Assembly (NCBI RefSeq): GCF_024345835.1 | Contig: NZ_JAGQBW010000023.1 | Span: forward strand, 1 to 38,516 | DNA from: Synechococcus sp. HJ21-Hayes | GTDB lineage: Bacteria > Cyanobacteriota > Cyanobacteriia > PCC-6307 > Cyanobiaceae | DNA length: 38,516 bases | Direction of reading: 5' to 3' | Part shown: in pieces, positions 1,800 to 37,975 of the stretch | How the letters are laid out: every line of letters begins with the position of its first letter | Position numbering within the stretch: position 1 is the stretch's first letter | Program-made: the position numbers and the translations under genes | The notes under the pieces: model-generated | Database searches by the model: none | What the model was told of the DNA's origin: nothing | The model's input: only the letters and a program-made list of their open reading frames with translations

Positions 1800-2737
1800 T
1801 TGAAACCCTGCTGCAACTCCTGCTCAACGGCGCCGCCAGTGGCGGCGTGTATGCCCTGGTGGCCCTGGGCTACACGCTCGTGTTCTCGGTGCTCGGGGTG
1901 ATCAACTTCGCCCAGGGCGCGCTCTTTTCCGTGGGGGGCTACCTCACCTTTCTGTTGATGGGCGGCAAGATCGGCGTCAACGGAGCCCTACCGGGCTGGG
2001 GGCTACCGGGCGGGCTGCCCTTCTGGCTGGCACTGCTGGTGGCGGCGGCCGGCTCCGGCCTGGTGGGGTTGCTGGTGGAGCGGGTGGCCTTCGCGCCGCT
2101 GCGGCGGCGCAACGCCGAGCCGCTGCTGGCCCTGATCACCAGCCTCGGCGCCGGTGTGGTAGTGGTGAACCTGCTGCAACTGCTGATGGGGGCGGAGGGC
2201 TACGCCTTCCCCCATGGCACCGATGCTCTGGGCGGCCTGCCGGGTGCCCTGATGATCGCCGGCGCCCGCATCCGCACGATCCAGCTATTGCTGCTGCTGA
2301 CTTCCGCCGGCGCCGTGCTCGCCCTCAGCCTCTGGTTGGAGCGCAGCAAGGGCGGCCGGGCCCTGCGGGCCGTGGCGGAAGACGCCACCACCGCCCAGCT
2401 GCTCGGCATCAACAGCGAAGCCATGGTGCGGCTGGCCTTCTTTTTAAGCGGTGCCCTGGCGGGACTGGGCGGCGGTCTGATCGGCGTGAGCGTGAGCCTG
2501 CCAGGCCCCTACTTCGGCATCGGCTACGGCCTCAAGGGGCTGGCGGTATTGGTGCTGGGCGGCCTGGGCAGCGTGCCAGGAGCGATCGCCGGCGGGCTGC
2601 TGATGGGCCTGGCGGAGGCCCTGGTGCCCAGCGCGGCCTCCGGTTGGCGCGATGCCCTGGCCTTCGCCATCCTGTTTGCCGTGCTGTTGCTGCGCCCCAG
2701 TGGCCTGCTGGGCCGGCGCACGGTGGAAAAGGTATGA
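1796..2737 (+). CDS. livH: Branched-chain amino acid ABC permease, LivH-type
   Basis: A 313-residue polytopic membrane protein of the LivH/NatD family, one of the two pore subunits of the importer. The N terminus shows the family pattern NGAASGGVYALVALGYTLVF followed by VINFAQGALFSVGGYL. The cytoplasmic coupling segment is RAVAEDATTAQLLGINSEA, where the ATPases dock. A glycine-rich C-terminal part (GLKGLAVLVLGGLGSVPGA) is also typical. It starts with GTG inside the stop of the binding-protein gene (GTGA overlap), which suggests translational coupling. Length is normal and nothing appears broken. Confidence 0.93.
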   Translation: MIETLLQLLLNGAASGGVYALVALGYTLVFSVLGVINFAQGALFSVGGYLTFLLMGGKIGVNGALPGWGLPGGLPFWLALLVAAAGSGLVGLLVERVAFAPLRRRNAEPLLALITSLGAGVVVVNLLQLLMGAEGYAFPHGTDALGGLPGALMIAGARIRTIQLLLLLTSAGAVLALSLWLERSKGGRALRAVAEDATTAQLLGINSEAMVRLAFFLSGALAGLGGGLIGVSVSLPGPYFGIGYGLKGLAVLVLGGLGSVPGAIAGGLLMGLAEALVPSAASGWRDALAFAILFAVLLLRPSGLLGRRTVEKV

Positions 2738-2750
2738 GGAGGGCCGCCCC

Positions 2751-3664
2751 GTGATCGACAACGGCCTACTGGTGCAGATGCTGATGGGCGCCCTGCTGGG
2801 CCTGTCGGTGTATCTGCCGCTGGCGGCGGGGCAGCTCTCGCTCGCCACGCCGGCTTTTTACGCGGTGGGCGGCACCCTGGCCGCCCTGCTCTCCACCCGT
2901 TGGAGTGCCCTCGGGGCGACGGCCAATGGTGGGTTTCCAGTGCCGTCGCTGCTGCTGGAGATGGCCCTGGGGGGGGTACTGGCCGGGCTGCTGGCCCTGC
3001 TAGTGGGGCGCCTGGTACTGCGGCTGCAGGGGATCTACCTGGCCATTGCCACCATCGCCCTTGTGGAGATCGTGCGGGTGGCGATCCTGAATTTGCCCTT
3101 CACCGGCGGAGCCGTGGGGATCTTCGCCATCCCCCAGCCCTTCGACACCGCCGCCGGCTACCTGCTGCCCGCCCTGGCACTGCTGGCCCTGGCGGGCTGG
3201 CTCTGCCAACGGCTGGAGCTGATGCCCCTGGGCCGCGCCATGGCCGCCATCCGCCACGACGAACTGGCCGCCAGCTGCATGGGCCTCGACACCACCCAGG
3301 TGAAGCTCACCGCCTTTGTGCTCAGCGCCATGTTGGCCGGCAGCACCGGCGCCCTGGCCGCCCACTTCCTGAACACCTGGAATGCCCGTCAGGGCTCCTT
3401 CGACACCAGCATCACCACCCTGGCCTTTGTGGTCCTGGGGGGCTCACGCACCTGGCTGGGACCTGTGGTGGGAGGCCTGCTGCTCACAGCCCTGCCGGAG
3501 CTACTGAGGCCGGTGGGCGATGTGCGCCTGGTGCTGTTCGGCCTGGTGATCCTGCTGGGACCGGTACTGGCCCCCCAGGGACTCGTCACGCCGGCCCTGC
3601 TGGAGCGCCTGGGGGGCTGGAGCCTGCGCAGTGGCGCCAGCCGAAAAACCGAGAATGCACAGCC

Positions 3665-3668
<4 letters not shown>
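2751..3668 (+). CDS. livM: Branched-chain amino acid ABC permease, LivM-type
   Basis: A 305-residue polytopic protein, the second pore subunit of the importer (LivM/NatC family). Landmarks are a YLPLAAGQLSLATPAFYAVG segment near the N terminus and the ATPase-coupling loop AIRHDELAASCMGLDTTQVK. The C-terminal part has TLAFVVLGGSRTWLGPVVGG. GTG at 2751 is chosen as start: a good Shine-Dalgarno (GAGGAGGG) lies just upstream, spanning the end of livH. Longer frames would overlap livH by about 90 bases and begin with cysteine-rich nonsense. The 3' end overlaps livG by four bases (ATGA). Confidence 0.92.
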
Positions 3669-5160
<1,492 letters not shown>

Positions 5161-5241
5161 GGAGACGAGGTGACCAGGGAGTCAAGACCATACACATGCT
5201 CCCAGGAGCGTGTCGGACATTGAGCTGAGACCAGGAAGCGA

Positions 5242-5431
5242 TCATTGAGCCCGTGCGCTTCCGAGATACCCGAAAAGCCTGAGGACGCTGTGGGCGGTGG
5301 CCATTAGGGCCCATGGCCCATTCACCTGACTCCAGGCCCCATAAGCAGGAGCGATCCAAACCTCTGGCTCCCTTGATCTGGCCTAACACCGGTTCCACCA
5401 CAGTGCGGGGTGCATGGCGGGCTCGGATCAC
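5242..5431 (-). pseudogene. IS1182-like transposase C-terminal remnant, frameshifted
   Basis: The minus strand encodes RTVVEPVLGQIKGARGLDR, LWGLESGEWAMG and then, after a one-base frame change near 5304, MATAHSVLRLFGYLG. Together they follow the C-terminal end of IS1182-type DDE transposases, which reads roughly TVEPVFGQIKxARGFRRF...GLEKVxGEW...THNLLKLF. The frameshift and the absence of the catalytic domain show that this is a dead fragment. The rest of the 393-base gap between livF and the next gene shows no other gene. The remnant sits at the transition to the more A/T-rich island. Confidence 0.65.
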
Positions 5432-5553
5432 GAGGCACCAGCAACCGACCCACCCCGTACCGCATCCAATGCCAAAGAAATGCCCCTCTAGCCACTTAAG
5501 GGATTGACATATGCATATGATGGGAAAAAGTTGGTCGCGGAGCCGGTGCTGGC

Positions 5554-5985
5554 ATGGAACTCGAGATCTTTGGCTCCATAGCTGCTTCTGCCCTCACGGC
5601 AACGGTCCTCCTGGCACCGCTGGAGGTCAGCAGCCAGCCAGGGCTTCAAGACCCAATCCTGCCTGATGCCAGCGGGATTCTGTCCTTGCAGCAGGCCAAC
5701 CCACCTGAAACGCTGAATCTCCTTCAGGGGCCTTCCCAGCTGAGCCCTAACGCCGACATTCAGGGCGGCGTTCTGGGCAGCTCCATCAATCCTGCCGCTC
5801 TTGAGTCATTGGTCGGCGGAGTGCACGCGAGAGACTTCCCCCAACCAGCAGATCAAAACTATGGCCCCAGAGGGAACAACTCAATTGTGTGGTCTGACAA
5901 CCGAGGAACCTGGAAATCAGACCCTCCCGACAATGCTTGCATGCTTCAGTCCACATCACAGACCAACTCAGATTCCTGCAACTAA
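5554..5985 (+). CDS. Secreted protein of unknown function
   Basis: A 143-residue product with an N-terminal hydrophobic stretch (SIAASALTATVLLAPL, residues 8-23) that fits a signal peptide. A Gln/Pro/Asn-rich, low-complexity mature part follows. Two cysteines close to the C terminus (DNACML and SDSCN) could form a disulfide. I recognise no family. It is the only plus-strand gene in the island, and it converges on the TPR gene with a 40-base gap. No alternative in-frame start lies directly upstream. It is plausible as a surface or periplasmic protein, but that rests only on the signal sequence. Confidence 0.55.
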   Translation: MELEIFGSIAASALTATVLLAPLEVSSQPGLQDPILPDASGILSLQQANPPETLNLLQGPSQLSPNADIQGGVLGSSINPAALESLVGGVHARDFPQPADQNYGPRGNNSIVWSDNRGTWKSDPPDNACMLQSTSQTNSDSCN

Positions 5986-6025
5986 GAAAGCCAGGTTCCA
6001 GCCCTTCCGCCTGGATTAACCATGG

Positions 6026-8332
6026 TTACCGGCTGCATTGAGATGTAGCCCATGCAAGGGAATCTTGATCTCCAAGACTGGCTGCTTTGCGCCAGTCACG
6101 GCAAGCAGATGCGAGATTGTTCACGGCCTCCAAAGCAATGCCTCGATTGGAATAGGCGGACGCATAGGATGGATTAATCTCGATAGCCTTGGTGTAATCA
6201 GAAATGGCTGCTTGAAGCTTGCCAGTCTTGAAGAACAGAGCTCCGCGGTTATTGAAGGCGATTGAATAGTCTGGCTTGAGGCTGATAGCTTTATTAAAGT
6301 CGTCGAGGGCGCCAGAAGAATAGCCTAGATTTGACTTAGCGAGACCCCTATTATTGAGAACATTGGCCTGCGAGGGACTAATCTGAAGCGAGTTGTCGTA
6401 ATCGCCAATGGCACCCTTCGTATCCCCGAGCTCATCCTTCAGCCTGCCGCGCCTGAAGTAAGCGGCAGCATGCGCAGGAAAAACTTCAATGATCTTGGTA
6501 TAGTCAGAAATCGCTTCTGCCTGTGATGCAGTTTCCTCTCTCAGGGTGGCCCTGGCATAAAGCGATTCTGGATTTGATGGATTTAGCGCGATGGCCAGAG
6601 TGTAATCCTTGATAGCTTTTTCCTTGTCACCAAGTTCTGCCCAAAGGGCGCCACGCCGTTTCAGAGCTGCTACGAAGTTTTTATTCAGCTCAATGGCACG
6701 GTTGAGATCTTCCAAGGCACCCTGCTTGTCGCCAAGCAGATCACGGGCCTGCCCCCGTGCCAGGTAAATGGATGAATCCTTCGGATTCAAGCTCAAAGCA
6801 GTGTCGTAGTCTTTAATGGCTCCATTAGAGTCCCCATTACCGATACGAGCCCTGCCGCGATTGAGATACAAGGATGAGTCGGTCGTCTTGGCCGCAAGAG
6901 CTATATCGTACTTACGGATCGACTCGCTATAGTCGCCTCGAAGCAAAAATTGATTCGCAAGGACTGCTTCTTGACCCTGGCCGTCGCGATCAACAAAATC
7001 CAACTGGGCATTATTTATGAGCGAAGCACCGAGAGAGGCTGGATTCACCAATCCATTCAACGCACTGCTGGCAATCCGAACGCCTTGCTTCTCCTCAGTT
7101 GAGGAATTTGTGATTGGCGCCTGTTGATTACTGGGCACATGTCGCAGGGCTTCCTGCAGCTTCAAGGCCGGCTGTTCAGGCTCTAGCTTAGGAAGAACCA
7201 GCTTGTTGGCTTGATCGTGAACAGCCTGGCTCTTAGACGCAAGCTGCTCTGAAAGGCGAATTGCGATTTGCCTGTGCTGCTCCAGTTGTTCAAGATATTT
7301 CGCCTTTGCAAGTCGCTGTTGCTCCTGCTGCTTGCGCTGCTCCTCTTGCTGGCGCTTGGCCTCCACCCTGGCCTGCTCTTGCTGCGCCGCTTGGGCCTGT
7401 TGCGCTGCTTGCTGGACAGCAATGAGACGTTGCTGCTCGAGCTCCTTCAGGCGCTTGGCTTCTGCGAACGCCAGTTGCTCCTGCTGCTTGCGCTGCTCTT
7501 CTTGCTGGCGCTTGGCCTCCACCCTGGCCTGCTCTTGCTGCGCCGCCTGGGCCTGTTGAGCAGCTTGTTGGACAGCAACGAGGCGTTGCTGCTCGAGCTC
7601 TTTTAGGCGCTTGGCTTCTGCTAACGCCAATTGCTCCTGTTGCTTGCGCTGCTCCTCTTGCTGGCGCTTGGCCTCCACCCTGGCCTGCTCTTGCTGCGCC
7701 GCTTGGGCCTGTTGGGCTGCTTGCTGCACAGCAACGAGACGTTGCTGCTCGAGCTCTTTTAGGCGCTTGGCTTCTGCTAACGCCAGTTGCTCTTGCTGTT
7801 TGCGCAGCTCCTCTTGCTGGCGCTTGGCCTCCACCCTGGCCTGCTCTTGCTGCGCCGCTTGGGCCTGTTGAGCAGCTTGCTGGACAGCAACGAGGCGTTG
7901 CTGCTCGAGTTCCTTCAGGCGCTTGGCTTCTCCTCGTTGACGCGTTGCTGCTTGATTGTTCGATTCGGTCGGTGGAATCTGAAGGGAGTCTTGTGGTGGT
8001 ATTAACTGGGAATCTGCCGCTAAAGGCTGGCTGGTGCCTGATTGCAACGATAGATCCGTTGATCCCGGACTTATAGCAACAGGTGGAGCAGGCGGATGTC
8101 GATCTACCGCTTCATCAGAGGCCGAAAGCGAAGAGAGTGGGGGCCCGATCAAATCAGAGCTATTGCCCTTCGTTTGATCTTGCTTGCTTATTTTTGGCTT
8201 GAGAGCGACTTGCTGAGCTGGATTGCCAGTATGTTGCACAACAGTATTGTATTGCCTGTACGAAGTCAGGCAAAGCACCCCAACAAGTGGAGACGCAATA
8301 GAGATAATTATTGCCAGCCGGGTGCGAATCAT
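6026..8332 (-). CDS. Membrane-anchored coiled-coil/TPR repeat protein
   Basis: A 768-residue protein with three parts. An N-terminal hydrophobic segment (LAIIISIASPLVGVLCL, residues 6-22) is an anchor or signal. A charged Gln/Glu/Lys/Arg/Ala coiled coil follows, made of four 52-residue repeats beginning EAKRLKELEQQR. The C-terminal third holds about eight or nine TPR repeats, for example ALSLNPKDSSIYLARGQARD and AIEINPSYASAYSNRGIALE. TPR domains bind proteins, so a scaffold role outside or at the cytoplasmic membrane is likely, perhaps for the secreted proteins next door. A longer reading from 8392 exists, but those codons overlap the terminator hairpin of the preceding gene, so ATG at 8332 is preferred. 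The exact role is unknown. Confidence 0.8.
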   Translation of the reverse strand: MIRTRLAIIISIASPLVGVLCLTSYRQYNTVVQHTGNPAQQVALKPKISKQDQTKGNSSDLIGPPLSSLSASDEAVDRHPPAPPVAISPGSTDLSLQSGTSQPLAADSQLIPPQDSLQIPPTESNNQAATRQRGEAKRLKELEQQRLVAVQQAAQQAQAAQQEQARVEAKRQQEELRKQQEQLALAEAKRLKELEQQRLVAVQQAAQQAQAAQQEQARVEAKRQQEEQRKQQEQLALAEAKRLKELEQQRLVAVQQAAQQAQAAQQEQARVEAKRQQEEQRKQQEQLAFAEAKRLKELEQQRLIAVQQAAQQAQAAQQEQARVEAKRQQEEQRKQQEQQRLAKAKYLEQLEQHRQIAIRLSEQLASKSQAVHDQANKLVLPKLEPEQPALKLQEALRHVPSNQQAPITNSSTEEKQGVRIASSALNGLVNPASLGASLINNAQLDFVDRDGQGQEAVLANQFLLRGDYSESIRKYDIALAAKTTDSSLYLNRGRARIGNGDSNGAIKDYDTALSLNPKDSSIYLARGQARDLLGDKQGALEDLNRAIELNKNFVAALKRRGALWAELGDKEKAIKDYTLAIALNPSNPESLYARATLREETASQAEAISDYTKIIEVFPAHAAAYFRRGRLKDELGDTKGAIGDYDNSLQISPSQANVLNNRGLAKSNLGYSSGALDDFNKAISLKPDYSIAFNNRGALFFKTGKLQAAISDYTKAIEINPSYASAYSNRGIALEAVNNLASACRDWRKAASLGDQDSLAWATSQCSR
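7307..7930 (-). repeat. Four tandem 156-bp repeats inside the TPR/coiled-coil gene
   Basis: Four consecutive units of 156 bp encode the 52-residue coiled-coil repeat; unit boundaries recur at 7930, 7774, 7618 and 7462. The first three units are nearly identical at DNA level with a few synonymous changes, and the fourth diverges at its end. Such identity suggests recent unit duplication, and the copy number may vary between strains. Confidence 0.85.
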
Positions 8333-8354
8333 TGAGATGAAGCAAGAACGGGTA

Positions 8355-8383
8355 AAAAAAAGTGGGACCGAAGCCCCACTTTG
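8355..8383 (-). terminator. Rho-independent terminator of the Ser/Ala-rich secreted protein gene
   Basis: On the minus strand an 8-bp stem (AAAGTGGG pairing with CCCACTTT) encloses an eight-base loop and is followed by a run of T. It lies about 45 bases past the stop of the upstream gene. It ends that transcript and separates it from the TPR gene. Confidence 0.85.
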
Positions 8384-8427
8384 GTTAAACAAGCGGCAAT
8401 AGAACGAGCCTATTGCGCTCGCTCTTA

Positions 8428-9474
8428 CTATTGACCAGCGCCAGAAGCACCAAAGGCCTGCATGAAGGCAGATGCGCTGGTGGAGTTGGACTGAGTCGCG
8501 AACGACGAGGTGGACAGCGATGCGCCGGCAGCGCCGTTGCCCGTACCGTTGTTCGAGGAGGTGGTGTCGTTGCGAGCAACGTCTGCCGTGAAGGAAGAAG
8601 TACCAGCTGCGTTCACGTTTGCGATCACACCAATACCGCCGACTTCGACAGTGCTGCTGCTTTCACGCGCTGAACTTGCCTGGGCTTGTGAATATGCCTG
8701 CGAATAAGCCTGCTGGTAAGCAGATTCATACGCAGCATTATATTCGGCTTCCGAAGCGTAGTCGCCACCGGCATTATAGGAAGCGCCGACTGCGAAGTCA
8801 GCAGCGGCTGCAGCACCGCTCTCGAAGCTATTGTTCAGAGCAGCCAAGGCTGCAGAGTTGCTACCGGTTTCCGTGGTGGTGAATTCACCAGAGATGATGC
8901 CAGTGGCGCTCTGAGCAGACGATGAAGACGTAGACGCCTCCATGGCCGTTTTATAGGAAGTATCGTAGTTTTCAGTATACTTATTCTCCCAACCTGCCTG
9001 CCATTCAGCCCTGGATTGGGCTTCCCATTCTGCACCGTTACCCTGGGTGTCGCCGTATTCCGCAGCCCATGCCGCGGTCCATTCCATACCAAATGTGGAG
9101 GAATTTGCGAATTCCCGGGCGGCAGTCGAGGCACTCATCGCCGATGCCTGAGAAGCGGCTTGCTGGTTTGCAGCGCTGCTGGAGGTACCGATGGTTTGCT
9201 GCAGAGTGCTGGTGCCGGCCAGGTTCAGAGCGGCGGATGCACTCGAGTCGTAATCGATCGTCGAAGAAGCCGACGCGTTCACACCAAGGTTGGTGCTCGA
9301 GCCAACGTTAAAGCTGTTGTTGGTGCCCAACGAGTTGTTGAATTGGGCGGTACCTTGACCGGTAAAGACAACCGAACCCGCGGTAGGGGTTTGGATGTTG
9401 AACATGGGTTCAGCTTTAGCGCCGGAAACGGCACCCACAACCAGAGCGGCTGCAAGAAGAAGACGGTTTTTCAT
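8428..9474 (-). CDS. Secreted Ser/Ala-rich protein with periodic aromatic residues
   Basis: A 348-residue exported protein of unknown family. The signal peptide is clear (KNRLLLAAALVVGAVSGAKA, residues 2-21, cut after AKA). The mature part has three zones. First is a Ser/Thr/Asn-rich segment with beta-type alternation (FNNSLGTNNSFNVG). Second is a helical zone in which Trp or Tyr recurs about every four residues (EWEAQSRAEWQAGW, later AYESAYQQAYSQAYSQAQ). Third is another Ser/Thr/Asn-rich tail ending SASAFMQAFGASGAGQ. There are no cysteines in the mature protein. The composition suits a polymerising surface or matrix protein, but this is inference. It is a separate transcription unit with its own terminator, downstream of the small secreted operon. 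Confidence 0.72.
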   Translation of the reverse strand: MKNRLLLAAALVVGAVSGAKAEPMFNIQTPTAGSVVFTGQGTAQFNNSLGTNNSFNVGSSTNLGVNASASSTIDYDSSASAALNLAGTSTLQQTIGTSSSAANQQAASQASAMSASTAAREFANSSTFGMEWTAAWAAEYGDTQGNGAEWEAQSRAEWQAGWENKYTENYDTSYKTAMEASTSSSSAQSATGIISGEFTTTETGSNSAALAALNNSFESGAAAAADFAVGASYNAGGDYASEAEYNAAYESAYQQAYSQAYSQAQASSARESSSTVEVGGIGVIANVNAAGTSSFTADVARNDTTSSNNGTGNGAAGASLSTSSFATQSNSTSASAFMQAFGASGAGQ

Positions 9475-9874
9475 CGTCGGATGTGATTGGACAGGTCTGC
9501 CGGGTTTTCGGGGGCGTCCACTTGAGAAGAAAGCGGAGGCATGCTCGAACCCGACAGATGCATATTAGCAGCTGTTTTGCGCATATGCTGCTGCATTCCA
9601 TGGGTAGGAATGCTTAAATTCGACTCAAATGTAGCAAGCGATACTTTTTAAACCCTGCACTCGATCGGATTGAGCCACCGGCATAGCCTTGGTTTTTTCC
9701 AACCTGTCCTGATGAGGCAATCCCTGGGTGCTTCTGGGGTGATGCTGGTGGCAACTAGCCGCCAACGTTGACAACTTTCTCTCCTAACAGAAAAAATGAT
9801 TGCGAAGAATTTGCGCCACGACGGTTTCACCGGCATAGAACACGAGATATCTCTTGGCAGATGCGTGACTACGA
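9475..9874 (-). other. 400-base gap without a convincing gene
   Basis: This stretch lies between two minus-strand secreted-protein genes and presumably carries the promoter of the gene starting at 9474. A TAATAT box lies upstream of that gene, but I find no matching -35 at the right distance. Short open frames here have atypical composition and no recognisable motifs. Confidence 0.4.
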
Positions 9875-10210
9875 CTAGTTTTGATCTAACTCGTTCTTTG
9901 GCGAGCACTGAAAATAGCCCTGGCTGCTCTGGTTCGAGCCGTAGTTAATACATGACAATCGCTGATCTTGACTGTCTCGGCAAGTAATAACCTGCCCGGG
10001 TATCAGAGTGCAGTCAACAATAGAGTTGTTATCACTGTTGATACATTCACCAGTTCCATCTTGATTGGACGTGCAGTAGATATTGGTAGTATCTGAATCA
10101 AATGATTGGGCCAAGAGAGTCTGCATGCTTGCCGTGCTCTTGACCTGGCTGAACACCAAGATTGCAACCGATCCAGCAATGGCGTGGGTAATTGCTTGGA
10201 GAAGCCGCAC
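9875..10210 (-). CDS. Small Cys-rich secreted protein (paralogue of 14273-14695)
   Basis: A 111-residue product with an N-terminal hydrophobic segment (HAIAGSVAILVFSQV) followed by a compact mature domain with six cysteines. The core reads YCTSNQDGTGECIN, then LIPGQVITC, then LSC and YFQCSPKNE. The same pattern recurs in the protein encoded at 14273-14695, so the two form a paralogous family that I cannot link to a known one. Six cysteines in an exported domain suggest disulfides. GTG at 10210 is the start, eight bases after the preceding stop, so it is probably the last cistron of the four-gene operon. Confidence 0.65.
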   Translation of the reverse strand: MRLLQAITHAIAGSVAILVFSQVKSTASMQTLLAQSFDSDTTNIYCTSNQDGTGECINSDNNSIVDCTLIPGQVITCRDSQDQRLSCINYGSNQSSQGYFQCSPKNELDQN

Positions 10211-10218
10211 GAGTGGTT

Positions 10219-10857
10219 TCAGCTTTTGTTGGTTTTAGGGGCTTTTAGAGTTGGCTGCGGAATCAATGGAGTTGGGTTAGGCCTTGCGCTTGTCCTTGGT
10301 ATGGACTTGAGAACTTTTGTCTGGGCACATTTTTCGAGAAGTGGATACACCTCTGGATCAACTGCAATGCCATCTTTTTCCAGGGATGCGCAAGCTCGAA
10401 TCATCGAGAGTTCAGTCGAAATCTTGCGATCGATGGTGATTTGATTGGCAAGCTCTGCACAGTTTTTAAGAACGGTTGAACCAAATGGAACCAGCACTCC
10501 GATATTTGCTGAATAGTTACCGCTTTGAGCCCTACTCACCGTACTGATGGTATCAGAATTGACTTGATTTGCATTTCCATAGTTTCCCCCAACATACATC
10601 GTGGGCGTACGGCAAAAAATACCGGGGGCAAAGCCGTTTTCGTTGTTATAAGCGTTATTTGTTTGGTAGTTGATATTCGTTCCTCCCGTGGTAGCTGTGG
10701 TTACGTTTGCCGATGGACTTGCTGTGCCCGTAGTGGAAATTGGGCTGTTATTTCCCTCAGTATTGTTTTGCGCTTGGGCTGACAACGGAATAGAGCTTAA
10801 CAGCAGCAATAAAAGCAGCCCACGAAAAGCAGACTTGATCTGACATTCGGCTTGCAT
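10219..10857 (-). CDS. Secreted protein of unknown function with four cysteines
   Basis: A 212-residue protein. A strong hydrophobic signal (RGLLLLLLLSSIPLSAQAQ) precedes an Asn/Thr/Ser/Gly-rich linker. A folded-looking region with FCRTPTMYVGGNYGNAN and VLVPFG comes next. A helical C-terminal part carries three more cysteines (KNCAEL, RACASLE, EKCAQ), and the tail is basic and Pro-rich. The GGNYG...VPFG arrangement suggests a small beta-rich exported domain, but I do not recognise the family. It begins three bases after the preceding stop and ends eight bases before the next start, as expected within an operon. Confidence 0.62.
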   Translation of the reverse strand: MQAECQIKSAFRGLLLLLLLSSIPLSAQAQNNTEGNNSPISTTGTASPSANVTTATTGGTNINYQTNNAYNNENGFAPGIFCRTPTMYVGGNYGNANQVNSDTISTVSRAQSGNYSANIGVLVPFGSTVLKNCAELANQITIDRKISTELSMIRACASLEKDGIAVDPEVYPLLEKCAQTKVLKSIPRTSARPNPTPLIPQPTLKAPKTNKS

Positions 10858-10860
10858 TGC

Positions 10861-11373
10861 CTAGAAAGAAGAGAAGAAAGAATTGACAAAATTTGAACTG
10901 GTTGAGTCAATAACGAGTTGGGTGGTGACGCTTCCGCTAGCAGATCCCTGCGCAGTGCTGTAAGTATCTTTGGGTTGACCTTCGATATCCTTGGGTGTAA
11001 TTCTTACTTCGTAAGCGGTTCCCTCTCCATACTTGAGATTACCGATTGAAGAAGCTCCCTGTGCTGCTCCCGAAGCAGATGACGTCGTTGATCCTGGCGT
11101 ATTGCCAGTGTTACTCAGAACTGCCGTTGGGTCGGTGATTTCTTGGAACGACGTACTATCCGGACCCACAATGAGCTTCGCTGATGTGTAAACATCAAAA
11201 TTAGGAGTCATCGTTGCAGATGATGACACGCCGTTAGTGTTGGAAATCGTAACTGACAACCGATTGGTTGTACCAGTACTAGAATTTGTGTTGGTCTGAG
11301 TGGCTTGGGCGTAGGCTTGCTGGGCTGGTGCAAGAACAACGAGGGCAACTGCAGCCAGGAGAAGTTTTTTCAT
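10861..11373 (-). CDS. Small secreted Ser/Thr/Asn-rich protein
   Basis: A 170-residue exported protein. The signal peptide is textbook (KKLLLAAVALVVLAPAQQAYA) with cleavage after AYA. The mature chain is Ser/Thr/Asn/Gly-rich with beta-type alternation (NRLSVTISNTNG, SAKLIVGPDSTSFQ, AYEVRITPKD) and no cysteine. It ends STSSNFVNSFFSSF. That last segment resembles the ends of the neighbours at 11370 (SASPSFINSFSRSLR) and 8428 (SASAFMQAFG). Its ATG overlaps the stop of the preceding gene (ATGA), so translation is probably coupled. Composition and context suggest a surface subunit; function is unknown. Confidence 0.68.
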   Translation of the reverse strand: MKKLLLAAVALVVLAPAQQAYAQATQTNTNSSTGTTNRLSVTISNTNGVSSSATMTPNFDVYTSAKLIVGPDSTSFQEITDPTAVLSNTGNTPGSTTSSASGAAQGASSIGNLKYGEGTAYEVRITPKDIEGQPKDTYSTAQGSASGSVTTQLVIDSTSSNFVNSFFSSF

Positions 11374-11933
11374 CGCAGTGATCGGGAGAAGCTATTAATA
11401 AATGATGGGCTCGCTGACCTTGCTTCCCTAACGAGAAACAGGGATGTGTAAGCGGAGTAATTGATCAAAGCTGGCTCAACAGCTGGATCTGCGGCTGGAT
11501 TGGCCAAGGCAAACGCGGACGTTTCAAGAGTTGATGGACCAAGAATCAAACTGCCGTCTGTGGTGAATCCCTTGTGAGACACCTCTGTTCGCGTATTTCC
11601 GGAAACACCTTGGGCCGCAATGGTTCCGTCGGAGAGGATGAGCTCGGTTTCCGCTACAGAAGAGCCACCGCCTGTGCTTGATGCTCCGCCTGAGCTGTTG
11701 GTGCCCGATTGGGCAGCTTTTCTGGCATAGAGCGACTGAGGGTCGGAAGTCACCATGCGCAGCCCGCCGGTCACGCCTACAAATTGCGCAAATCCAGGCA
11801 AGGGGCCGCCAAGCATGCAAAAACCGACAAATCCAAGCCGCAAGACCGCAGCAAGGCTCTGCCCAAGAGGGACGCAATGCCTTGCGCGACGGAGACATGC
11901 TCGAGACGGCGCCGGTGGCCCCATGAGAGACAT
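11370..11933 (-). CDS. Secreted protein, first gene of the four-gene operon
   Basis: About 187 residues. The N terminus has a basic region, then a hydrophobic signal (LRLGFVGFCMLGGPLPGFAQ). The mature chain carries VGVTGGLRMVTSDPQSLYAR, a Ser/Gly linker and a beta-type region (GSLILGPSTLETSAFALAN). It ends INYSAYTSLFLVREARSASP plus SFINSFSRSLR. The LILGPST segment echoes LIVGPDST in the next gene, hinting at distant common ancestry. A longer frame reaches 12182, but it has no good start and runs through the promoter described at 11954-11982. ATG at 11933 (or 11924) just downstream of that promoter is therefore preferred. No known family recognised. Confidence 0.6.
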   Translation of the reverse strand: MSLMGPPAPSRACLRRARHCVPLGQSLAAVLRLGFVGFCMLGGPLPGFAQFVGVTGGLRMVTSDPQSLYARKAAQSGTNSSGGASSTGGGSSVAETELILSDGTIAAQGVSGNTRTEVSHKGFTTDGSLILGPSTLETSAFALANPAADPAVEPALINYSAYTSLFLVREARSASPSFINSFSRSLR

Positions 11934-11953
11934 GGATACTCGTATTTGCCTGA

Positions 11954-11982
11954 AGCATAGCAGTGGTGCAACGGCGCGGCAA
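11954..11982 (-). promoter_or_regulatory. Sigma-70 type promoter of the secreted-protein operon
   Basis: On the minus strand TTGCCG (-35, 11977-11982) and TATGCT (-10, 11954-11959, preceded by TGC) are separated by exactly 17 bases. The likely transcription start falls roughly ten bases ahead of the ATG at 11933. The leader is short. Confidence 0.55.
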
Positions 11983-12178
11983 CGCTCTGTTTGCAACGGC
12001 CGGCTGGGCAGGGCTCCTGCGGCCGACACCGAGACCGGAACCAGCCCTGGCCAGAGCTTCTCCACCGATCCGATTGAAAGGGACGGGTTTTGGTCGTTAC
12101 CGCGCAGCGGCAGCCACCGAGCTTGCGGATGCGTTCGATCAGGAGTGTGGCGCTTCCCGTTTATGGGGCATCTCCAGG

Positions 12179-14050
12179 TCAAGACTGGTGGTTAAGGAAT
12201 CCCCCATCCGTGCTGGTTCCGTTTGCGGGCTCCTCGTGAGTGACCTGCGGTTTGGTGAGCTGCCCTGTCAACCAGGCGGTTGCTTCAGCCACGAGTTCAG
12301 ACCAAGCCTGTTGCGGTTGCTGGCGGATCAGCTTCAGGCTCGGATACCACGGATGTCGATCGGCATCGGGGCTCCCCCAGCGCCAGTTAATACGCTGCGG
12401 CAACAGCACCACACCGGGAATCCCCAGGCAGCCAGCGAGATGGGCAGGTCCGCTGTCATCTGTCACCACCCAGTGGCAGAGGCTCATCAAGGCGGCCATG
12501 TGCTCCAGCCGCTGCACGCGATTCACGTCGCCTTGAATGCTCACAAACCGATGGCGGAAGCTGCAGGTCTCCAGTTGTTCCTGTCCGATTCCCTTTTGCA
12601 GCGAGAGCAGCCGCACCCCTGGCAGCTCGCTCACGGGCTGGAATGTCTCTAGCGGAATATTGCTGCTTTGCCGCTCCAACAGTGACTGCAGAGCAGAGCC
12701 ATGCCAGTTCAAACCCACGAGCCGTTCATCGGTCGACAGGTGCATGCGATCCTGCCATTGCTGAATCAGAGCTGGATCGGCCGTGAGGTTTGGAGTGCCC
12801 AGCGAAGGGTGTTCCGTGCAGCTGCCGAACAGGCCCGGCAAACTGGCTAGTGGCAGCGCTTCACCGCAGTGCTGCTGCGCCAAGGCCGCTAACGACTTCA
12901 CGGCAATGCTTGAACTGAGTGCTGTTTGGAGCAGGGCCAGCAGAGGCGGTTGTACGAACAGCTGCACCGGGATCGGCAACTGTTCCTGCAGCCAGGGCGC
13001 ATAACGACTCAAAAGCAACGTGTCGCCGAGGGTGCCTGTGCCGATCAAGGCCAATGGCCCCTTGCTCACTCCAACCTCAAATCTGGGCAGCGAACAACCA
13101 TGCCCAAGGCTCTGCCCCTGGGCCTCCAACAGCCTTCGCTGCTGATCAAACGCTTCGTACCCAGCACGCAGTTGCCCCTGCAGCAACAGACACTCCGCTT
13201 TCAGCGCATACAGGTCAGGCTGCTCCGGTTGGTGCTGAAGGGCTTGTTCAAGCACCGGTTGCAGCAGCTCCAGCCGTTGCTGTTCGAGTAGCAGCGGGCA
13301 GAGCAATCGCTGCAGTGGCCAGGGTCTGTCTCTGGTTTCAGCGTCCAGCAGAAGCTCTTGGGCCAGGCTCAAGGCCTGTTGTTCTTGGCCCTTGTTCTGC
13401 AACAGCCGCGCCTCAATGGCGCGGCCCAGCTGCAGCCAGGCAGATGATGCGTTCGCACCAGATCGTTGAGGCACTTCACTGAGCAGGGCCTCAGCTGCCT
13501 GGCTTTGCTGATGTTCAAATAGGCATAGCGACAGGCAAACGCGAGCCTCAGGGTCGCTCGGCGCTTGCTCAAGCCAATCTTCGAACAGTGGCAGGGCCTG
13601 CCTGCTGTTTCCCAAGCGCAGCAGCAGGCGAGCGGAGTGCTGGATGGCTCCCAGGTGATGGGGTTGCTGCTCCAGAAGCCACTGAAAGTGCTCCAAGGCT
13701 GGCTTCATGCGTCCCAGGGCTTCGGCGGCACAACCCTGCTCCCATCTGAGTTCAGGCCTCGTGCTGGCCTGCTCCAGCCAGGCATCACGCCATTGGGCTG
13801 CTTGGTCAGTGTCTCCACGCTGTGCTGCAAGTTCGCCGAGATCGCGATAGACCTCAGGCAGATTGGATTGCGACTGAAGCAGCAATCTCAGAAATGGCTC
13901 GGCATCATGGAGCCGTCCCAGCTTGCGTAGTGGTGCAACCTGCTTCTCATACAGCTGCAGCTGGGGCGTTCTGCTGTGGCCTTGAGAGGATTCGGATCTG
14001 GTGTTGCCAAATCCACGCTGACGCAGTGATGATCGATTTAGGCGGGACAT
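12179..14050 (-). CDS. TPR-glycosyltransferase fusion (GT9/heptosyltransferase-like fold)
   Basis: A 623-residue protein. Residues 30 to about 310 form helical TPR-type repeats (FLRLLLQSQSNLPEVYRDLG and similar). The C-terminal half is a GT-B glycosyltransferase. It begins near KGPLALIGTGTLGDTLLLSR (around residue 330) and contains the nucleotide-sugar site DSGPAHLAGCLGIPGVVLLP (residues 532-551), followed by WRWG and PWYPSLKLIRQ. TPR plus this GT domain is a common bacterial protein-glycosylation design, where the TPRs hold the acceptor. No signal peptide is seen, so it acts in the cytoplasm. It lies just upstream of the secreted Ser/Thr/Asn-rich proteins, which are attractive acceptors; that link is inference. 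The start at 14050 fits the N terminus MSRLNRSSLRQRGF. Confidence 0.8.
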   Translation of the reverse strand: MSRLNRSSLRQRGFGNTRSESSQGHSRTPQLQLYEKQVAPLRKLGRLHDAEPFLRLLLQSQSNLPEVYRDLGELAAQRGDTDQAAQWRDAWLEQASTRPELRWEQGCAAEALGRMKPALEHFQWLLEQQPHHLGAIQHSARLLLRLGNSRQALPLFEDWLEQAPSDPEARVCLSLCLFEHQQSQAAEALLSEVPQRSGANASSAWLQLGRAIEARLLQNKGQEQQALSLAQELLLDAETRDRPWPLQRLLCPLLLEQQRLELLQPVLEQALQHQPEQPDLYALKAECLLLQGQLRAGYEAFDQQRRLLEAQGQSLGHGCSLPRFEVGVSKGPLALIGTGTLGDTLLLSRYAPWLQEQLPIPVQLFVQPPLLALLQTALSSSIAVKSLAALAQQHCGEALPLASLPGLFGSCTEHPSLGTPNLTADPALIQQWQDRMHLSTDERLVGLNWHGSALQSLLERQSSNIPLETFQPVSELPGVRLLSLQKGIGQEQLETCSFRHRFVSIQGDVNRVQRLEHMAALMSLCHWVVTDDSGPAHLAGCLGIPGVVLLPQRINWRWGSPDADRHPWYPSLKLIRQQPQQAWSELVAEATAWLTGQLTKPQVTHEEPANGTSTDGGFLNHQS

Positions 14051-14093
14051 CGCTGTTAAGGCACTATTTGACTGCTAAAAGTATAATAATCTT

Positions 14094-14107
14094 CGGGAGG
14101 TCTCCCG
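14094..14107. promoter_or_regulatory. Small perfect inverted repeat upstream of the glycosyltransferase gene
   Basis: CGGGAG and CTCCCG flank two bases, about 45 bases ahead of the glycosyltransferase start. An A/T-rich stretch resembling a -10 (TATTAT/TATACT on the minus strand) follows directly. It could be an operator or the base of an RNA hairpin; the function is not shown. Confidence 0.3.
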
Positions 14108-14272
14108 ATCAGGCGGATTATCGCGCCAGCACCGCTGACCGACCTCAGGTTGCAAGCTCAGATTGGCGGCTCTGAGCGCGCCAGGTGAACACTTGCCATT
14201 GTAGACCCATCGCCTGCCATAAAAGGCAAGGAAAGCATTTGACGCGGTTGTGTTTTTTGGGCATACATCCAC

Positions 14273-14695
14273 TTAGAATTCGTCTTCGAAGGTGTTTTTG
14301 ATAGGCGCCTCGCCATTGGTCGCCGAGCCAGAGCCTCCCTCCAGCACATTGTCGAGGGCCCTCGGCAATGCATCGCCTATTGCTGCTCCATAAAGAGCGG
14401 CCTCGTCTTCTGGATCGCACCAGAACTGTGCTTGATTGGCTGTGATGCCGCTGATCCACACGCATTCCAGAGATCTGGATGCCGCTGGGCAAGAAATGAT
14501 TTGCCCCGGCACAATCAGGCACGTTATCTTCCGGCCATCTTCTTCGTTAACACATTCCCCTGTTCCATCATTATTGGATGTACAGTACGCGAAAAATCCA
14601 TCCATGACACGGGCCATGGATGAGCCTGGAAGCAGGGTTACCTGCGCTGCAAGCAACAGTCCAGATAGGGTTAACGATCTTCGACTGATTGCCAT
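14273..14695 (-). CDS. Cys-rich secreted protein (paralogue of 9875-10210)
   Basis: A 140-residue product. The N terminus is basic and then hydrophobic (RRSLTLSGLLLAAQVTLL), a signal peptide that may be cut near SSMA. The core AYCTSNNDGTGECVN, IVPGQIISC, LEC and FWCDPEDE aligns cysteine for cysteine with the protein at 9875-10210. A C-terminal extension of about 45 residues, acidic and Gly/Asn-rich, is extra. The longer frame from 14911 adds 72 basic residues with no signal and is rejected. ATG at 14695 has AAGG about eight bases upstream. It is transcribed in the same direction as the glycosyltransferase and lies just upstream of it. Family unknown. Confidence 0.65.
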   Translation of the reverse strand: MAISRRSLTLSGLLLAAQVTLLPGSSMARVMDGFFAYCTSNNDGTGECVNEEDGRKITCLIVPGQIISCPAASRSLECVWISGITANQAQFWCDPEDEAALYGAAIGDALPRALDNVLEGGSGSATNGEAPIKNTFEDEF

Positions 14696-14948: not shown

Positions 14949-15479
14949 TTAGTTCAAGAAATAGGGCGCCAACTTATTGACAACACCAACTGGCTCATAG
15001 CAGCGCTTGGCAACTTTGCGCTTGGGTTCGCGTGAATACAGGCAAAGTTTACTGTCTTCATAGTAAAAGGTGCCCCATGTTCGCCTGCCTTGAAAATCGA
15101 CCGTGTATTCAGGCATATTGAGACGATTCTGTGTCTGCAATCCGCAGCCTTTGACTGGATCACGCTTGATGGTCCAGATGCGGCCCCTGAGATCCACCCC
15201 ATAGGTTTTGCTACTTGTTGCAGAGCGGTACAGGTCGTATTCGCTGAACTTCTTTTCAATGCTTGTGCATTGCTCTAAGCGCTGGATGGCCTTCTTGCGC
15301 GCCTCCTGATTGCCCGCCTGTTGTTGATACTCGTCCTTCAAATCCACAACCTGCTCAGCGCGCAGGCCCAGTACTGGCACTGCGCTGAAGATCACAGCCC
15401 CCATGAGCAGGGAGGCACCCCATCTACCCCTTGCAGAGAGGGCGGATGGGACCCTCAAGGGTGGCTGCCGGCCGCTCAT
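14949..15479 (-). CDS. Secreted or periplasmic protein of unknown function
   Basis: A 176-residue product. After a basic start, a hydrophobic segment (WGASLLMGAVIFSAVPVLGL) ends in RAEQ, a plausible signal peptide. The mature part begins with a short helix (VVDLKDEYQQQAGNQEARKK). It continues as a beta-rich region with four cysteines (EQCTS, KGCGL, SKLCLY, KRCYEP) and many aromatic residues (WGTFYYEDSKLCLYSRE). I do not recognise the family. A start ten residues upstream (15509) is possible; ATG at 15479 gives a more usual signal length. It is the last gene of the island before GC-rich metabolic genes resume. Confidence 0.6.
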   Translation of the reverse strand: MSGRQPPLRVPSALSARGRWGASLLMGAVIFSAVPVLGLRAEQVVDLKDEYQQQAGNQEARKKAIQRLEQCTSIEKKFSEYDLYRSATSSKTYGVDLRGRIWTIKRDPVKGCGLQTQNRLNMPEYTVDFQGRRTWGTFYYEDSKLCLYSREPKRKVAKRCYEPVGVVNKLAPYFLN

Positions 15480-15634
15480 GGATACCAAAATGCTGATTAT
15501 GCATGCCATTGTGGCCGGTTTGGTCGATCCGCACTAGGGGGCCCGGAAAACCCAGGTCTGGGGTCCTGGGCGGCAAGCAGCTCGGCTTCACCGAATGACG
15601 AGCTGACCACGGCCCACAAACGCACCGGCGGACG

Positions 15635-35002: not shown

Positions 35003-35926
35003 TCAATGCACCCACTCGGTCTCCCGGCAATGCCCAAGCGGCGACGCGCGAAGCAGTTCAGAGAGCTGTTGGAAGGCAAAGGCGAAACAGGGATCACCAA
35101 CCACCTCGCGATGGCCGATCACAGCAATCACCTCTGTGAGGTCTAGCTCATAGGGCAGTGGCAGCAACTGCCAACGCTGCTCCAACTCAGCCAAACGATG
35201 GGCCGGCCCATAAGACAACGTGTTCCCATCGCGCGACGCACCCTCCCAACGGTTCACGTCGTAGTTGCTGCCGCCATACGGCGTGCTGGCCAAGCCATGG
35301 GCCTGGAGAGCATTCGTGAGCATTGGAGCCGCACCAAGCGGCAGAGATGGAGATGGGTAACAGGCGAGATCATCAGCAGAAAGGCTGGAGCGAGCGAATA
35401 ACGGATGATCACGGTGCGCTACCACATGAAGGGGTGAGCGAAACAATGGAACACATTGCAGCGTCTGCCCGATCGCGATCCGTCCAGGGCCAAGACGATG
35501 CAACGGCTCTTCAATCAGCGACTGATATTCAAACAAGCCACCAACCCAAAGATCGAGGAGTCGGCCATCTAGAAGCGATAGCGCATGCCCCGCATTCATC
35601 GAGGAGAGGGGGAGCAAACGCCATCCACTGGGCAACGACGGCAGCGAAAAGAGCCAATTCAAGACAATTCTGAACTGCCGACGCCGCGTCCTGATTTTCT
35701 GTGCGGCTGTTCGCAGGGTCAACAGCACATCGTGATTACTCTGAGCGATATAGGATCCGTCTACACGATCAAAGTCGATCCCCAGCACCTCACCAAAGGC
35801 ACGATACCGACGCGAGCAGCTGCTTTGGCTCAGGCCGAGAAGATCGGCAACCTTAGTCGTACTACCGAAGAGCTCGAGGTAGTCGACAATATCGAGATCA
35901 TCAAAGAGCGCCTCACCTAGAACCAT
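35003..35926 (-). CDS. LysR-type transcriptional regulator-like protein
   Basis: A 307-residue protein. Its N terminus has a helix-turn-helix of the LysR kind (DYLELFGSTTKVADLLGLSQ then SSCSRRYRAFGEVLG). A periplasmic-binding-like effector domain follows, with HALSLLDGRLLDLWVGGL, VAHRDHPLFARSSLSADDLA and YPSPSLPLG. Sequence is divergent from classical LysR, so the effector is unknown. The start is uncertain: ATG at 35926 is used, and GTG at 35959 would add eleven residues. It converges on polA with a 13-base gap. Its target genes are not evident here. Confidence 0.72.
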   Translation of the reverse strand: MVLGEALFDDLDIVDYLELFGSTTKVADLLGLSQSSCSRRYRAFGEVLGIDFDRVDGSYIAQSNHDVLLTLRTAAQKIRTRRRQFRIVLNWLFSLPSLPSGWRLLPLSSMNAGHALSLLDGRLLDLWVGGLFEYQSLIEEPLHRLGPGRIAIGQTLQCVPLFRSPLHVVAHRDHPLFARSSLSADDLACYPSPSLPLGAAPMLTNALQAHGLASTPYGGSNYDVNRWEGASRDGNTLSYGPAHRLAELEQRWQLLPLPYELDLTEVIAVIGHREVVGDPCFAFAFQQLSELLRASPLGHCRETEWVH

Positions 35927-36198
35927 CTCGACGCCCAGAGGGCCCAGCCCCTTTTGCACTTACCAAACGTAACGCAGACCCGAACGAGATCTCAATTAGC
36001 CGACCTTTCCATGCACAATCCGCATACGCGCAGCGGCCGGTCTATGCAGTTCATACATATTTGATGTCACAAGCTCACTCGTACCCAGGAGAGACATTTC
36101 TCTATGCGAGTTACAATTAGGAAGTGCGCTTGCGGCTGGGCCGGTAAAGGTTCAATAAGCTCGACCCAAGCTGCTGCCCCTTTTCGATTGGCTTTGTG

Positions 36199-36726: not shown

Positions 36727-37975
36727 ATGGGAGCTTCGAGCTGCGAAACCAATCCAATCCCCAGTGGATACGTAGACCCGGCTCCGTCGTGAGCTGATCG
36801 GCCTCCTGCATCAACCCAGAACCTTCTGCGACCAATGCCACCAGGTGCTGCTGGGGTGGATGGTCGCCGGGCTGCTGCTCAGCCAGACCGCCTGTTCCAA
36901 CCGCTGGATCACCGTGCTGCCTCTGGGCCACTGCCTGGCTGCCAACTATCAGCGCTGGCTGAGCAACAGCCGCATCGACGTTGAGGCGCTCTATGGCCCC
37001 ATGGTGCTGTGGGCGATCCAGCACTTGCAAAAGCCAGGCCAGGCCATGCATCAGGCGCACTACACCACGATGCTATGGAACCGCGGCTGCATAGTGGTGA
37101 TCTCGGTGATCTGCAACGGCCGGGCGATGCCGCTGCCGTGGAAAGCACGGGATCAGCCCAGTGCCAGCGTCAGCGCGTCGGTTTCGATCGCCTTGCTGGA
37201 AAAGGCGGAGCAGCTCCTGATCGGATTCGGGGCCATCACACTCCTGGCCGATCGCGCGTTTCCCTATGATTTACCGGTGGCCTGGTTCGCCGCCAGGTCC
37301 CGTTGGAGCTACGTCATGCGTCTGCGCGGCGGCACTGAGATCCATGGCACCGCAGCGCCTCTCGGTTGCCAGGTGCGCCGATTGCATCTCCAGCGCGGTG
37401 AATGCCGTGGCTTCCGCAATGTGCGGCTCTGGGCTGATGGCACTCAGACGGTGAATATGGTGCTCCCCCATCCCACCGGGCTGCCGGTGGAGGAGCCCTG
37501 GATCCTGATCAGCAGCGCTGAGCCCTCGCTGGATCTGGTCTGGAGCTACGCCCAGCGGTTCTGGTGTGAGCAGCTGTTCAGGGACCAGAAATCCGGGGTG
37601 TTCCAGCTGGAGAGCAGCGGCCTGCGGGAACCGGAGCGGATTGATCGGCTGCTGCTCGTGGTCGTGATCGCTGTCTTGGTGGGCAGTCTCCAGGGTTATA
37701 CTCTCAGCCTGGCGGGCCTCAGGCGGCAGGTGGATCCGCATTGGAAACGCGGCATGAGCTTTCTATGGATTGGCCTGGCCGCACTGCAGATGGCGGTGGC
37801 TGATGTCACGGCCAGGTTGATGGCATGGCTACCGATCCCCATCCACGAGCTAGAGCCCTGCATTCTCAGCCGTAAGGCCAGTAGAAGGCATGCGCAGGCC
37901 TGGTTCTCCAGGGTTGAGCTGCCGCCGCGACCGCGATCAGCGACCGATCACACGCCGCTGCTGGTAGTCACATGA
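36727..37975 (+). pseudogene. IS4-family transposase, frameshifted at the 5' end and lacking one catalytic Asp
   Basis: Most of the protein is readable from about 36776 to the TGA at 37975. RRELIGLLHQPRTFCDQC lies upstream of the first good start (GTG at 36845), with an in-frame TAG at 36773. An ATG at 36727 in another frame reads SGYVDPAP up to the same point, so a one-base frameshift is likely. The IS4 signature Y-x2-R-x3-E-x6-K is present (YAQRFWCEQLFRDQK), as is the second Asp (LLADRAFP). The first Asp, expected as DTTMLW, is Tyr (HYTTMLW, codon TAC at 37061). Transposition by this copy is therefore unlikely. Ends of the element were not identified. Confidence 0.8.

Follow-up and report, generated by a model that had tools for sequence, protein, structure and literature searches.

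Glycosylated autotransporters of the TibC/Aah type are served by cytoplasmic GT9-like heptosyltransferases. For cyanobacteria, the accessible text of a 2015 review describes appendages as largely without genetic characterization, and the same text holds a proposal of chaperone-usher pili for Synechocystis (PMC4390875). Spinae are described, in the portions of the sources available, as tubes on marine Synechococcus and freshwater Cyanobium (PMC8955281, PMC4390875), and curli genes have been proposed in pelagiphages (PMC7029224, likewise available in part). Here we analyse a minus-strand cassette of exported-protein genes (A to E, with neighbours F to I) in a 38,516-nucleotide stretch of Synechococcus sp. 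HJ21-Hayes, contig NZ_JAGQBW010000023.1 (hereafter the window). On balance, if only just, we think it probable that the locus encodes an undescribed export-and-assembly system in which a C-dependent surface fibre or matrix would be built from A/D/E-type subunits, perhaps glycosylated by F. This reading draws on export signals, co-occurrence, homology, a C-terminal motif, conserved cysteines and low G+C content, all read at the level of sequence. What is new here is C as a constant part, with relatives in cyanophages and Vibrio phages. An earlier note on this DNA had missed these phage relatives, the paralogy and shared motif of A, D and the E family, and the low-GC island in which the cassette lies.

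Comparison with described surface and secretion systems

With curli (type VIII secretion) the locus has in common an operon of small exported low-complexity subunits plus accessory proteins, but no curli family was listed for A-E and CsgG was absent from 7/7 carrier genomes tested (positive in 4/14 controls). Chaperone-usher pili, including CccS/CccP of Synechocystis as described in the available text (PMC4390875), likewise combine exported subunits and a small partner in one operon; the window system differs in that the usher (PF00577) was found in 0/7 carriers (positive control 1/14, E. coli) and in that C has four conserved cysteines and no PapD match. Of the ten carriers described below, the CsgG and usher searches covered seven. 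Pfam searches at expect (E) values up to 10 listed no CsgA/B-type curlin repeats and no CsgE/F, PapD or SCPU match, and on the CsgG, usher and Pfam negatives both systems were rejected. CccS and CccP were also rejected as relatives of A and C, being set apart by their descriptions in the accessible text, where CccP is PapD-like and CccS SCPU (PMC4390875). A PapD-like chaperone or pilin fold was not found by sequence match, and the models of C and D were of low confidence. A, C and D carry ordinary AxA-type signal peptides (judged by eye) and not the type III signal of type IV prepilins. As in TibC/Aah-type autotransporters, a cytoplasmic GT9-like enzyme lies beside exported Ser/Thr-rich proteins; unlike there, no autotransporter domain was found in A-E, and F carries tetratricopeptide repeats (TPRs). 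Spinae would be one candidate product of the cassette. A literature search found no paper joining exoproteome, Synechococcus and low complexity.

Gene content and layout of the locus

The window is contig C16 of a 2.94-Mb genome (G000) whose named relatives are picocyanobacteria. The features are as follows.

I, 6026-8392, minus strand: membrane-anchored coiled-coil/TPR protein adjoining A, with TPR matches in Pfam; probable accessory part
A, 8428-9474, minus strand: exported low-complexity protein, probable main subunit; SAFMQAF near its end
B, 9875-10210, minus strand: small exported protein with six cysteines
C, 10219-10857, minus strand: exported protein in which four cysteines are conserved; judged from sequence, the system's constant partner
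D, 10861-11373, minus strand: exported subunit; C-terminus SNFVNSFFSSF
E, 11370 to ~11933, minus strand: exported protein in the E-subunit position, ending SFINSFSRSLR; start codon uncertain, the open reading frame (ORF) opening at 12182
F, 12179-14050, minus strand: TPR plus GT9-like glycosyltransferase, N-terminus not hydrophobic
G, 14273-14695, minus strand: exported six-cysteine paralogue of B, ending IKNTFEDEF; the first ATG precedes the signal-peptide-like stretch
H, 14949-15509, minus strand: exported-looking protein, family unknown; possible accessory

The earlier note had placed five minus-strand genes for exported proteins here, and both the coordinates of A-E and their hydrophobic N-terminal segments agree, the segment being weakest in E, whose start is uncertain; AxA-like sites are visible by eye in A, C and D. 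Its neighbouring genes were also named correctly, F combining TPRs with a GT9-like domain, G being exported and Cys-rich, and I a TPR protein. Transcription runs H, G, F, E, D, C, B, A, I. Four of the genes are closely packed, as the note had it, with a 4-base overlap of E and D, a 3-base gap between D and C and one of 8 bases between C and B; because ~400 bases separate B from A, A may be a separate transcription unit. The 'good promoter' credited to them was not recovered: a sigma-70-type scan found nothing on the minus strand upstream of either E or A (cyanobacterial promoters may differ), and the region holds 4 such sites on both strands against 2.9 expected. The stated richness in Ser, Thr, Asn and Gly holds, these residues making up 40-51% of the mature parts vs 22% in four other window ORFs, including F and I. 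None of A-E, G and H reaches a Pfam or NCBIfam cut-off. The G+C content of B, C and D is 46-48%, vs 69% in the left and 67% in the right flank; I, A, E, G and H lie at 53-56% and F at 60%. Of nine loci in other carriers, seven have a cassette poorer in GC than the remainder of the locus and two a richer one.

Co-inheritance of A, C and D

A search with C matched 14 of 151 genomes of the family, strongly (E value < 1e-40) in seven from six genera (G000, G004, G044, G047, G119, G126 and G147), the next best value being 3e-11. The A profile and the D profile each matched exactly those 7/151 genomes, so that 144/151 are without A, D or strong C; as the loci behind the profiles had first been located via C, the co-occurrence tests absence elsewhere. 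The B profile matched the seven carriers plus G101, G102 and G148, the first two with a weak C match and the last with none. The E-family profile matched 5/151 genomes, all of them carriers, the window's genome not among them, and the profile of K, a further gene of the cassette, matched five carriers and one marginal genome (5.5e-4). None of the six sampled congeners (6/6) has A, D or C, and the cassette is thus strain-variable.

Three further carriers came from a named collection, Synechococcus sp. 8F6 (locus L019), Prochlorococcus AG-355-A18 (L020) and a Cyanobium metagenome-assembled genome (MAG; L021), giving ten in total when L018 (Cyanobium usitatum) is counted as the G126 locus and L022 (a TMED19 MAG) as the G119 locus. 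A, D and C are clustered in 10/10 carriers. The order E-D-C-B-K is repeated in L018/L023, L024, L025, L026 and L028; the complete order A-TPR-E-D-C-B-K is found in L025 and L026, in L020 minus B, and in L028 with A inverted. The E family and K each occur in 7/10 carriers. By these counts of sequence matches, co-occurrence and synteny exceed chance, and the distribution of the cassette among picocyanobacteria is patchy. The co-conservation that the earlier note had proposed to check is therefore present, with A, D and strong C in the same 7/151 genomes; the gene products appear to be exported, and no match to a described family points to an unrelated function, so that none of the refuting outcomes named in the note has occurred.

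Paralogous subunits with a shared C-terminal motif

Profile comparison with hhalign joined D and the E family over 140 columns, the C-terminus included (probability 97.1%, E value 5e-11), and A with D (90.7%) and with the E family (83.6%), both in the N-terminal part. Repeats gave 96.7, 92.3 and 86.2% for D-E, A-D and A-E, and reversed-sequence controls 0.1-0.3%. A and D are, on this profile similarity, paralogues of each other and of the E family. Their C-termini carry an aromatic motif of spacing four, of the F-x3-F type (for example SNFVNSFFSSF, SFTQSFAQSF and SAFMQAF). A loose pattern sought in the last 16 residues was present in 25/26 A/D/E proteins vs 38/226 other long ORFs from the same loci, and after shuffling of the last 60 residues 3.2 of the 26 matched on average and 9 at most. 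The sole exception is A of L021, in which the motif lies further inside the protein. The motif also occurs in 9/12 B proteins, and in 0/18 C and 0/7 K. Profile searches of the PDB with C, D and A gave no match better than E 0.16.

The G147 genome holds three extra orphan copies of A outside the cassette (L096, L097 and L098), with the same C-terminal motif.

Conserved cysteines and relatives of C

Cysteines C82, C133, C156 and C177 of C are invariant in 18 host-set and 15 phage-set sequences, and all four also align in the Vibrio alignment. Six cysteines are invariant across 12 aligned relatives of B/G, and G is a paralogue of B (1e-15). Relatives of B occur too in C-type loci of other design, and a G relative is found together with F and H relatives in L019. 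B gave one subthreshold Pilin_N match in Pfam (E 0.13).

Independently of our own alignments, window C matched phrog_1755 (4.1e-12) and phrog_848 (2.3e-4). A search with the C-like protein of G066 (L032) matched 376 of the 50,697 phage records, all but 12 of the 376 being named Synechococcus, Prochlorococcus or Cyanophage. Window C as query matched 111 phage records at E values up to 1 (best 6e-12), 27 of them Vibrio phages, of which one is among the matches listed, at a score of 0.08. Host and phage C profiles matched at 97.8% (E value 9e-13), a figure that leans toward phage in that the phage-like L032 row is part of the host profile (A1); host and Vibrio C profiles matched at 97.2%. Viral scans with the C proteins of S-CAM7, the window and Vibrio gave 5, 3 and 2 candidates, none confirmed. 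Searches of phages found no match to A at E values up to 0.01 and none to B.

The C homologue of P-SSM4 and Syn1 is T4-GC 235, which lies between 234 and 236/237; T4-GC 236 is DUF6322. At least 594 viral contigs carry a C relative, and in the stretch covered of the best 80 of these, 236 is found in 74, 237 in 64, 234 in 77 and all four genes in 61. According to the accessible text of Sullivan et al. 2010, T4-GCs 218, 219, 234, 235 and 237 are hypothetical proteins that cluster, 'for functional reasons', in all 16 T4-like cyanophages compared except one (PMC3037559). Among the papers searched, none dealt with DUF6322, phrog_1755, phrog_848 or T4-GC 235, and nothing relevant tied cyanophage signal peptides to curli. 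Like the window locus, the T4-GC 234-237 cassette (phrog_1755/848) has a C homologue with the four cysteines kept and small exported-looking neighbours; unlike it, its partners 236 and 237 are without detectable homology to A, D and E, it includes 234, to which bacterial K gives no match, and no TPR protein or glycosyltransferase is annotated alongside in the two T4-like regions read. Phage 236/237 were rejected as A/D/E relatives (top probability 6.1% among the best 45 pairs listed), as was K as a relative of 234 (0.1%). In P-SSP7, the exported-looking PSSP7_044 neighbours the C-like PSSP7_045 (four cysteines by eye) downstream of the tail fibre gene. Vibrio phage sm033 encodes an exported-looking protein followed by a C-like gene, each of which matches the same 6 Vibrio phage records, ~270 bases or less apart in 6/6.

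Among cyanobacteria phylum-wide, C was found in 9/339 genomes, four outside the family. At three of these four loci (L092-L094) C adjoins proteins of 126-192 residues with a signal-peptide-like start, and 4/5 of the C-adjacent proteins end HETxAGxR; the fourth contig is short, and no such neighbour was seen there. An exported-looking partner gene adjoins C, but one was not seen for every weak C match (for example L029, L036 and L095). Plasmids searched with C gave no match. From this recurrence in sequence, C is the constant partner across bacteria and phages.

Several loci of other design were seen alongside. At L031 of the window's own genome (contig C2:20000-39900), positions 2089-10429, second C-like and B-like genes flank six exported-looking ORFs, after which come a response regulator and a histidine kinase (named by eye). 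Four of the six were compared by profile: none scored above 3.1% against A/D/E, and two are mutually paralogous (96.9%). L033 (G101) and L035 (G075) hold several C-like genes, then exported-looking proteins, with small ribbon-helix-helix-like ORFs between (by eye), apparently an array of repeated modules. On G066 contig C5 (L032:11818-17075), C-like and DUF6322-like genes lie beside phage tail-fibre-like genes (by eye), which we take as a prophage or a binned cyanophage contig.

Candidate accessory proteins F, H and I

F matches Glyco_transf_9 (PF01075) at 3.8e-5, with 23.6 bits vs a Pfam cut-off of 22, in addition to its TPRs; matches to solved structures in a profile search cover the TPR part only, and its first 60 residues hold no hydrophobic stretch. 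Its two best matches outside the window are both in carriers, G147 (2e-114) and G126 (3e-112), with the next at 2e-56; the G126 relative (41% identity) is on another contig than the cassette, and weaker relatives are widespread, in 71/151 family genomes at 1e-10. The two matches in carriers, with the place of F beside the cassette in 3/10 carriers, lend some support to a link of F to the cassette. A TPR gene of the I kind is near A in 6/10 carriers, the window counted. A relative of H sits between G and F in L019 (2e-58) and was seen in no other carrier.

Proposed assembly model and competing explanations

In the model that we favour, A, D and the E-type protein would cross the inner membrane by Sec as co-inherited subunits ending in an F-x3-F-x3-F-type segment, which may dock on a neighbouring subunit or an assembly factor; a route across the outer membrane is presumed to follow. 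C, its four cysteines probably forming two disulfides, and the six-cysteine B/G would be periplasmic or outer-membrane parts for assembly or anchoring and not main subunits, since they recur with unrelated exported proteins at other loci. F, a predicted cytoplasmic TPR-GT9-type enzyme, may glycosylate the Ser/Thr-rich subunits prior to export, and the TPR protein I may aid assembly in the envelope. The product would be a surface fibre or matrix of planktonic picocyanobacteria, and the cassette or island may have been acquired by horizontal transfer between lineages. The glycosylated fibre, matrix or surface layer that the earlier note had proposed is supported in part: the genes are co-conserved, the products look exported and a link of F to the cassette has some support. 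A fibre, matrix or layer, and glycosylation itself, are still inferred.

Several observations weigh against this model. In seven of the 14 C-positive family genomes the C-like gene stands without A and D, the window's genome lacks K, and F adjoins the cassette in only 3/10 carriers (the window, L019 and L024). Window E is unmatched by the E-family profile and reaches only 0.7% against D by profile; it was rejected as a member of that family, and it is equivalent to the E subunit by position and C-terminal motif only, as is L027:5428-6198. The window's own B is without the motif, one of three such among 12 B proteins, and only 4/14 exported-looking proteins near C in L031, L033 and L035 (picked by eye) match the loose pattern; the motif is therefore not a feature of all C loci. 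Low-complexity sequence may inflate similarity, yet the reversed controls came out negative. No outer-membrane exporter was recognized in the cassette. Structure prediction, which the earlier note had suggested, was of little help: AlphaFold2 gave D, all strand, a mean pLDDT (predicted local distance difference test) of 45.0, leaving a fibre without structural support, and C a mean of 52.9, block averages of 69-83 being reached only in residues 131-180, which are mainly helical. Both models were too weak to use, and no conclusion rests on them.

It seems unlikely that C works with its partners on the envelope and builds no appendage, as a phage-derived module (for surface remodelling, phage exclusion or as a lysis aid) adopted by cyanobacteria, or the reverse. 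Such a module would fit the spread of C homologues through viruses, with matches in 376 phage records and at least 594 viral contigs and, beside an exported partner gene, in six Vibrio phages; it would also fit the P-SSP7 pair downstream of a tail-fibre gene and the low GC of the island. The bacterial cassettes are, however, richer than the phage ones read: they have as many as three paralogous subunits, together with B/G, TPR proteins and, in some, a glycosyltransferase. A is without a phage match at the threshold used, and A, D and E score no higher than 6.1% against the 236/237 profiles among the best 45 pairs listed. We are similarly doubtful of a reading in which the operon merely groups secreted proteins, these being soluble exoproteins or an unordered, diffuse matrix: the low-complexity composition and the lack of a confident fold for C or D are what one would expect of these, but a gene order that recurs, the exact co-occurrence and conservation of the C-terminal motif favour joint assembly. 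A curli or chaperone-usher system diverged past recognition is very improbable and already largely refuted; exported Ser/Asn/Gly-rich subunits and the proposals, in the text available, of Synechocystis pili (PMC4390875) and pelagiphage curli genes (PMC7029224) speak for it, and against it stand CsgG and usher at 0/7 carriers with positive controls and the lack of any listed CsgE/F, PapD or SCPU match.

Beyond the fibre or matrix model, we raise tentatively, as a possibility we would not yet back, that C is the signature of an unrecognized outer-surface protein-assembly pathway in cyanobacteria, with a stripped form in T4-like and T7-like cyanophages and some Vibrio phages; picocyanobacteria would make glycosylated fibres with it, possibly spinae, and phages would use it to give the infected cell an exported coat or adhesin. 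If so, such a coat or adhesin would explain the conserved T4-GC 234-237 cassette. The relatives of C join two unexplained things, a secreted-protein operon of planktonic cyanobacteria and a hypothetical cyanophage cassette, and should C be an assembly factor, this cassette, which is frequent among sequenced marine cyanophages, would acquire a cell-surface role open to testing. Mutating the C-terminal motif that the subunits share would be a precise test, and what picocyanobacteria carry on their surface matters for grazing, aggregation and infection.

Other features of the window

At the left edge of the low-GC island, a short exported-looking ORF of 143 amino acids (5554-5985, plus strand) is without a Pfam or NCBIfam match. 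A LysR-like regulator (by eye) lies at 35003-35959, ~25 kb from A; LysR-like relatives (66-68 bits) directly adjoin A on the opposite strand in L025 and L026. Near the contig end, a transposase-like ORF (by eye) occupies 36845-37975.

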